From the NCBI RefSeq assembly GCF_018274385.1, contig NZ_JAAFYZ010000099.1:1-35127 (forward strand): a stretch of 35,127 nucleotides of DNA, written 5' to 3'. The notes beneath the pieces are model-generated. The model was not told the origin of the DNA. It was given only the letters and a program-made list of their open reading frames with translations, and did no database searches. Shown one piece after another: positions 5,435 to 6,800 of this stretch. This DNA comes from Catenulispora pinistramenti (GTDB taxonomy: Bacteria > Actinomycetota > Actinomycetes > Streptomycetales > Catenulisporaceae). Position numbers and translations under genes: made by a program. How positions within the stretch are numbered: the first letter of the stretch is position 1; each line of letters begins with the position of its first letter.

Positions 5435-5999
5435 GGGTGGAGTTTGCTGGGGGCTGGCGTTTGCTGGGGGCTGGAGTTTGTGGGCCGGGTTGCGGTTGGG
5501 GTGTGGATTTCAAAGCTTTTTACGGCCTTCGGTCATAGTTGTGCCGGTTCGGGGTTCGGGTCGGCGGGTGTGTTCGTTGGCTGCCGGTTCCCGCGTTCAC
5601 AACCCCGCCCCACCTCAGGCCTCTTCAACTCCAGCAAGTCAGGACACGAGCACAGGCCAGATCAAGAGCAAGATCAACAGCAAGATCAAGGTCAAACCCA
5701 TGGTGAAGAGCCGGGCCTCCGGCGGGCCTCGGCAACCTCAGGGAAACTAGCGCGGTTCCCTCGGGTGGCCGGGTGAGTCTCAGCGGCTGCGGTTTGTGAG
5801 GTGGTTACGGTCCGTTCCCCACGGTCGCGTCGTCAGCCCGGGGGGTACAGCACCGGTGTCCGGGGGTAAAGTCCGCGCGCGGCGGTTGGGTGCTCAAGCT
5901 GCGGTTTTGATAGCGCGAACTTGACCCCCGGCCACCGGCACTGTAGGCGAAGCCCTGCCGACGCGACCGAGGGGAACGAACCGAAAACCAGCCGGAGAA
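5435..5999 (+). repeat. Left arm of a very large imperfect inverted repeat
   Basis: Reading 5435-5999 forwards and 6800-6290 as reverse complement gives the same sequence with scattered changes. Long shared blocks include the stretch around 5530-5635 (TTGTGCCGGTTCGGGGTTCG and onwards), 5711-5755 (GCCTCCGGCGGGCCTCGGCA and onwards) and 5811-5990. The left arm has an extra segment near 5655-5695 made of GCAAGATCAA-like units that the right arm lacks. No intact gene is seen in the arm; predicted frames here are repeated on both strands and match no family I know. Confidence 0.88.
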
Positions 6000-6477
6000 A
6001 TACAAAACAGGGGGTGAGGTACCGGCGACTCGGCAGATTCGGCCGCCGGTCGGGGCGCTGGCAGCGCGACAGTCGCAAGGTACTCATTCTGTGCTGGCGG
6101 GCGCGGGTATGGGTGTGGGCTCGCCTGGCCGCCAAGATCGCCGCCGCCGGATGACAGATAGACCTGGCCACCAAAGCATGCCGCCTACCGCACCCGGGCA
6201 TGCTCTCGACCAACTGACCACCGGCCCGCCGCCGCACCCTCACCGGCAGCCGCATCGCCGACCCGCGTTGTCGTTCCCTTCGATTGCCATTCTTCCGGCT
6301 GGTTTTCGGTTCGTTCCCCTCGGTCGCGTCGGCAGGGCTTCGCCTACAGTGCCGGTGGCCGGGGGTCAAGTTCGCGCCATACGAAACCGCCGCCCACCTG
6401 CATGACCGCCGCGCGCGGACTTTACCCCCGGACACCGGTGCTGTACCCCCCGGGCTGACGACGCGATCGTGGGGAAC
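5814..6477. repeat. Four copies of a ~65-bp unit in alternating orientation
   Basis: A 65-bp unit beginning GTTCCCC, then CGGTCGCGTCG, TACAG, CCGGTG, CGGGGGT and ending AAGT..GCGC occurs at 5814-5878 (+), 5913-5977 (-), 6313-6377 (+) and 6412-6477 (-). The 1st and 4th copies are nearly identical, as are the 2nd and 3rd. The two types differ mainly in the middle, CCCGGGGGG versus GGCTTCGCC. So each arm of the large inverted repeat is itself a head-to-head pair of an older, more diverged unit. Confidence 0.82.
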
Positions 6478-6800
6478 GGACCGCACCACCCCACAAACCA
6501 CAGCCGCTGAGACTCACCCAGCCACCCTAGGGAACCGCGCAAGTTTCCCTGAGGTTGCCGAGGCCCGCCGGAGGCCCGGCCCTTCATCACAGCCCTTGAC
6601 CTTGCACTGGCTTACTGGAGTTGAAGAGGCCTGAGGTGGGGCGGGGTTGTGAACGCGGGAACCGGCAGCCGACAAACACACCCACCACCCCGAACCCCGA
6701 ACCGGCACAACTATAACCGAAGGCCGTAAAAATCGCCTTTCAACCCACACCCCAACCGCAACCCGGTTCGCAAACTTCATCCTCCTGCAAACTCCACCCC
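6290..6800 (-). repeat. Right arm of the very large imperfect inverted repeat
   Basis: Reverse complement of the left arm at 5435-5999, shorter by about 54 bp mostly because the GATCAA-type units are absent. The 290-bp spacer 6000-6289 between the arms contains a short inverted repeat (GCATGCC at 6177 and GGGCATGC ending at 6204) and no recognisable gene. The outer edge of this arm abuts a CAGTCC hexamer run. Confidence 0.88.

Follow-up and report, generated by a model that had tools for sequence, protein, structure and literature searches.

The window, by which we mean the whole 35,127-nt stretch of Catenulispora pinistramenti DNA analysed here, contains, between the genes for a response regulator and an FAD monooxygenase, which lie in tandem, a near-palindromic region which, left terminal repeat included, spans 5268-6801. 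An imperfect inverted repeat of about one kilobase had been described at this place in an earlier note, and it is indeed present: the arms, located at ~5450-6001 and 6289-6801, are 79-99% complementary by block and form an inverted repeat of 1.35 kb with 287 nt between the innermost arms, their local alignment against each other reaching a score of 682 versus at most 32 among 100 shuffles. The left border of the element is a terminal repeat at 5268, to the left of the start given in that note (5435), and a smaller palindrome is nested in each arm (5805-5878 with 5913-5986 in the left one); this start, the nested palindromes and the dispersed family described below were all absent from the note. 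The features of the window copy are the following.

5268..5293, plus strand: left terminal repeat of IS630 type (TA + 24 bp), 0 mismatches, score 43.6 versus 10.2 for the best of 1006 control stretches
5310..5405, plus strand: tract of eight tandem 12-bp units (GTGGTTCGYGAY) within the outer left arm
5450..5804, plus strand: outer left arm, conserved between copies
5807..5986, minus strand: left nested hairpin, branched, 63 modelled pairs, 195.8 bits (plus strand 130.3)
6002..6288, no strand: spacer between the innermost arms, mosaic across copies, conserved gene not seen
6304..6484, plus strand: right nested hairpin, mirror copy of the left one, directed from the centre outwards, 193.2 bits (minus strand 121.4)
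6485..6801, minus strand: outer right arm, without a recognisable terminal repeat beyond it in the window copy

Paired arm blocks (left/right) and their complementarity:
5450-5521/6730-6801: 79%
5517-5657/6592-6732: 89%
5701-5805/6485-6589: 93%
5808-5886/6405-6483: 99%
5910-6001/6289-6380: 97%

The left hairpin pairs better on the minus strand, which is also the direction from the centre outwards. On the right side, the best position for a terminus within 6781-7100 has 11 mismatches out of 26.

A hidden gene was rejected, in agreement with the absence of any intact gene claimed earlier: two ORFs tested in the region of the window element have no Pfam match and none of 41 elements has a called gene in its core. 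The longest open frames in 43 copies (167-301 codons) recur at several places and on both strands, as expected from conserved stops in mirror arms, and the length of the hairpin varies by single bases (178-184 nt), so that no reading frame is kept through it. A tRNA or a known RNA was ruled out, since the window contains no tRNA and no Rfam 15 match at the gathering score (the eight matches below threshold, best E 0.035, all belong to eukaryotic or viral families); the hairpin itself matches no Rfam 15 family. A plasmid or phage origin was likewise discarded, with no plasmid or phage match for the window element or for the L294 element of the second genus presented below. An assembly artefact, the objection foreseen in the earlier note, is unlikely in view of the mirror pairs found inside a 228-kb contig of another Catenulispora (genome G005) and in the single-contig genome G446, which belongs to a different genus.

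A dispersed family with IS630-type ends

A 29-base motif of the outer arm has 99 + 99 matches on the two strands of the C. pinistramenti genome, corresponding to ~99 elements, and 45 + 47 matches in Catenulispora pinisilvae NH11, with none in the other eight Catenulispora genomes. A 37-base motif of the inner arm, allowing up to 3 mismatches, gives 68 + 68 matches in the C. pinistramenti genome (0 for the reversed-pattern control), and a 22-base inner-arm motif is present in 8 of 10 Catenulispora genomes, C. acidiphila having 0 matches to this pattern. The hairpin model also matches Catenulispora genome G001 (L147, 96.7 bits). The C. pinistramenti genome is a draft of 11.46 Mb in 671 contigs, with many family matches at contig ends; the 61 extracted elements are those with both arms on one contig. 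A diverged palindrome copy (L139, G005:C20:31763-33218), 74% identical to the window element across the arms, lies within the 228-kb contig of G005, a better assembled genome in which the IS630-type end motif was not found at 2 mismatches, and possibly represents an older form of the element.

Beyond the arms, the terminal sequence is TAGTGCYGTRTCAGGCAACGTTTGCC, the IS630-type terminal repeat being TA + GTGCYGTRTCAGGCAACGTTTGCC. Of the 391 genomes of the order, 103 contain TAGTGCYGTRTCAGGCAACGTTTGCC when up to 2 mismatches are allowed, and pairs of such ends flank, among others, sequences of 1221-1237 bp with a long transposase frame (L228, L229, L230); the autonomous element with these ends belongs to the IS630 family (L162: NF033545, 169.9 bits; DDE_3). 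Element ends were scored with a matrix built only from IS630-type ends of other genomes and compared with 1006 control stretches, 102 of the 122 ends being scored (the remainder had less than 760 bases of contig). The best control is exceeded by 31 of 68 ends in C. pinistramenti and 8 of 34 in C. pinisilvae. At the 99% control level, among elements scored on both sides (27 and 14, respectively), both ends pass in 8 and 2, a single end in 10 and 2, and neither end in 9 and 10, which makes 10 of 41 elements with terminal repeats on both sides. When 1.8 kb was searched without restriction for the end motif, every hit fell at 507-694 bp from the inner core, and several ends run on for ~50-70 bp into IS-end sequence. 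TA starts 27 of the 33 ends scoring at least 25, with a matrix that itself favours TA. An intact transposase was not found in the 671 contigs of the C. pinistramenti draft, which yielded 14 partial protein matches and a fragmented copy on contig C642. In another member of the order, these IS630-type ends bound an element of 227 bp (G134:C52:25371-25597 and C50:238943-239169; L232, L233), a conventional small MITE that belongs to the same family of ends.

The mobility of the element is shown at one locus. The 1637-bp L093 element has TA at both ends, and the corresponding site in C. pinisilvae (contig C25) is empty, uninterrupted over 302 bp at 94% identity and with one TA; in genomes G005 and G001 the site likewise runs through, apart from small gaps around the junction. 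This clean empty site with a single TA indicates that whole elements transpose in the IS630 manner. Among the matches listed for seven queried sites, the L093 site alone is uninterrupted. The mobile-element remnant proposed earlier can thus be given a family, the IS630 type, the window copy being one without a recognisable right terminus.

We are therefore largely confident that the element is a giant non-autonomous foldback-type IS630 MITE. In this arrangement, two long mirror-image arms, separated by a short spacer, are bounded by IS630-type terminal repeats, and an IS630 transposase acting in trans would have moved the whole, as proposed for RUP and IS630-Spn1. The element shares with IS630-type MITEs terminal repeats matching an autonomous IS630, TA at the empty site and the lack of an internal transposase gene; its length, 1605-1833 bp from TA to TA in the ten copies with two recognised ends, lies outside their typical size range (<500 bp). 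In animals, foldback (FB) transposons, among them Tetris and Tm1, are characterised by inverted arms of great length that contain short tandem repeats and by a variable spacer, and are moved by transposases of eukaryotic FB families. The same long inverted arms, tandem arm repeats (a tract examined in the window copy only) and variable spacer are found here, in an element which, unlike FB transposons, is bacterial, has IS630-type ends instead of those of the eukaryotic FB families and carries a conserved structured hairpin in each arm.

The 41 of 61 elements that could be placed between two called genes, a count leaving out the 20 at contig edges, lie in 22 convergent, 15 tandem and 4 divergent gaps. 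Convergent gaps are over-represented (22/41 versus 27/194 background gaps of at least 50 bp, p = 2e-7), according to a home-made codon-usage gene caller that reads the window correctly and was trained on ten window frames, including the right neighbour of the element. Such a placement is equally expected for any promoter-sparing mobile repeat.

The expectation that the two arms of one element would resemble each other most was not borne out. Arm identity within the same element and between different elements is 88.7% versus 89.2% in C. pinistramenti, where the own partner is the nearest arm in 0 of 54 cases (pairing-shuffle p 0.92), and 83.5% versus 82.5% in C. pinisilvae (2 of 28 cases, p 0.39). 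The spacers, judged by eye, are mosaic among copies. At two sites common to both species (L123/L090 and L119/L099), one flank matches and the other is present but unmatched; three more pairs of flanks were unusable, two contigs ending at the element and one match not adjoining it. Together, these observations suggest recombination among element copies, in short-read assemblies where chimeric joins are possible, and give a weak echo to the recombination hotspot evoked in the earlier note. Nothing among the observations made points to the replication-related site also proposed there.

The nested hairpin in Catenulispora and in a second genus

The predicted fold of the ~180-nt unit nested in each arm comprises an outer stem, two small side hairpins and a long inner stem with an open apical loop, with folding z values of -7.8 as DNA and of -6.8 and -10.0 as RNA of the two strands. 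Out of 220 distinct hairpin matches, 120 were kept (one orientation, both stem ends required), 118 of them distinct. The covariation alignment comprises 25 of these 118 sequences, from eight Catenulispora genomes (8 of 71 from C. pinistramenti, 8 of 38 from C. pinisilvae and all 9 others), and 98.0% of its pair cells are paired. Double-sided changes affect 12 of the 63 pairs versus a shuffle mean of 4.8, a value reached by 0 of 500 shuffles, in a control that ignores relatedness. Slid versions of the structure pair at only 34-43%, a comparison which favours the counted structure since it was derived from the window sequence, a bias that the shuffle control does not have. Judged from this alignment, the shape of the hairpin is kept by compensatory changes in Catenulispora.

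The two strands are not equivalent. The opposite-strand reading is 91.2% paired, and over the 118 sequences G.U pairs favour the outward strand by 493 to 251 when pairs predicted on either strand are considered, and by 74 to 1 when they are predicted on both. The long RNA hairpin or cruciform imagined in the earlier note is retained in part: selection on pairing can be demonstrated for the ~180-nt hairpin of each arm and not for a hairpin of the whole kilobase. A conserved structure of the whole arm gave an ambiguous outcome and is not claimed.

A covariance model of the hairpin (R1) was run with strict filters on 296 genomes of the class, 9 candidates being scored in each. Two genomes had a match at E <= 0.001, namely C. 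pinistramenti and G496, which belongs to another family. When G496 and 25 of its relatives were considered, 6 of the 26 genomes matched (E 3e-7 to 1e-3), all from one genus (6 of its 12 genomes), and the single-contig genome G446 has five hairpin matches. The inner core in this second genus resembles that of the Catenulispora unit (GTCAAGTCC/GGACTTGA). In an alignment of 19 hand-chosen hairpins (L270, L289 and L296 were left out), 94.3% of cells are paired, 13 of 52 pairs are double-changed (1 of 500 shuffles) and the double-change cells number 58 versus 16.8 (0 of 500 shuffles); slid versions reach 37-48%, for a structure derived from the same sequences as those used for counting. In this genus the G.U pairs show no preference for one strand (57 to 71).

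Inverted pairs of hairpins occur in 8 of 20 second-genus loci (L285, L287, L288, L290, L294, L297, L298 and L299), where the resulting palindromes measure 0.5-0.7 kb and end at the hairpins; L293 and L296 have a short partial mirror and the remaining ten loci have none, some of them being cut by contig ends. Model scores do not exceed 47.5 bits in this genus versus 96.7-200.5 (better strand) in Catenulispora, where most sequences are those used for training, so that homology rests jointly on the fold, the core sequence and the paired arrangement. Given the diverged and covarying mirror pairs of the second genus, the paired hairpin seems to predate the IS630 ends of the element.

Possible role of the hairpin and comparison with known repeats

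Our best guess is that the hairpin would act as RNA in the transcripts crossing the element, as a terminator or a 3'-end structure, a reading to which we give about even confidence. The mirror duplication would then make it work in either orientation, and such an orientation-independent hairpin would fit the preference for gaps between convergent genes, or survival behind genes. More tentatively, the nested hairpin may represent a structured nucleic acid, probably RNA, of a class not described before, often mirror-paired and common to two actinobacterial genera of different families, which would have been amplified to ~100 copies in Catenulispora after becoming the cargo of IS630 ends; it could be a selfish or regulatory module riding successive transposons.

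It is less probable, yet worth serious consideration, that the hairpin is used by the element itself as single-stranded DNA or as a cruciform, for instance in processing, replication or propagation. The unit folds strongly as DNA as well, the mirror pair supplies each strand with one outward hairpin, and in the second genus, which lacks the G.U strand bias, the hairpins at the palindrome ends may be the ends of the element. The G.U pairs of Catenulispora nevertheless favour one strand, and the resolved Catenulispora insertion is an ordinary IS630-type event with TA, for which the hairpin is not needed.

Palindromes are prone to templated repair. Repair or gene conversion between palindrome halves, rather than selection on structure, would then have produced the covariation as a side effect, and the arms do look exchanged among elements; but templated repair should yield perfect complements, whereas the halves of the hairpin differ in a constant manner, each side having one small side hairpin of its own and G.U pairs persisting, and these constant asymmetries are also kept in the second genus, which leads us to consider this explanation improbable. 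We place hardly any weight on static intergenic repeats of the REP/BIME type whose IS630 ends would be chance or later insertions, which the many copies without terminal repeat and the two sites where a single flank is common to C. pinisilvae might evoke, but which agree poorly with terminal repeats at a constrained distance from the inner core, present at either end of 10 of the 41 elements scored on both sides, with a whole-unit insertion resolved to the base, and with a hairpin unit of ~180 nt, REP being palindromes of 20-40 bp (PMC3733652).

Among the closest known systems is RUP of Streptococcus pneumoniae, which is 107 bp long and present in 110 copies in ATCC 700669, and which is over-represented between convergent genes together with other pneumococcal repeats (PMC3049150). 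As described in that source, RUP is similarly non-coding, has IS630-type (IS630-Spn1-like) ends, reaches ~100 copies and prefers convergent gaps; the present element differs by its 1.6-1.8 kb, its long mirror arms and its nested covarying hairpin. BOX, also from pneumococcus, resembles the present element as a mobile repeat for which an RNA fold is predicted, expression having been shown for several, but it is modular (67-637 bp) and mirror pairing is not part of its description in PMC3049150, by which the two are set apart. Prokaryotic MITEs are typically below 500 bp with TIRs of ~4-30 bp (PMC10969869); Chunjie, Correia and QMITE1/2 are likewise gene-less with terminal inverted repeats. The Catenulispora element exceeds this typical size. 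No matching element was found among the listed open-access literature matches.

A near-full palindrome of 1.6-1.8 kb in ~100 copies is larger than the bacterial MITEs described in PMC10969869 and, if all copies are full length, would account for ~1.5% of the 11.5-Mb genome. It offers a tangible case in which to study whether functional structured RNAs travel with non-autonomous elements and by what means kilobase palindromes are tolerated in bacteria.

Elsewhere in the window, the left edge is close to a gene for a large serine recombinase (135-1775, minus strand), in which Resolvase, Recombinase and zinc-ribbon domains were recognised, and the protein predicted at 11502-13304 (minus strand) has a caspase-like Peptidase_C14 domain and, after it, WD40 repeats. 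A long frame at 26793-29999, which resembles an isoleucyl-tRNA synthetase, ends in tandem repeats of 15 bp (CTGAGGCTGGATGGT) located at 29996-30070.
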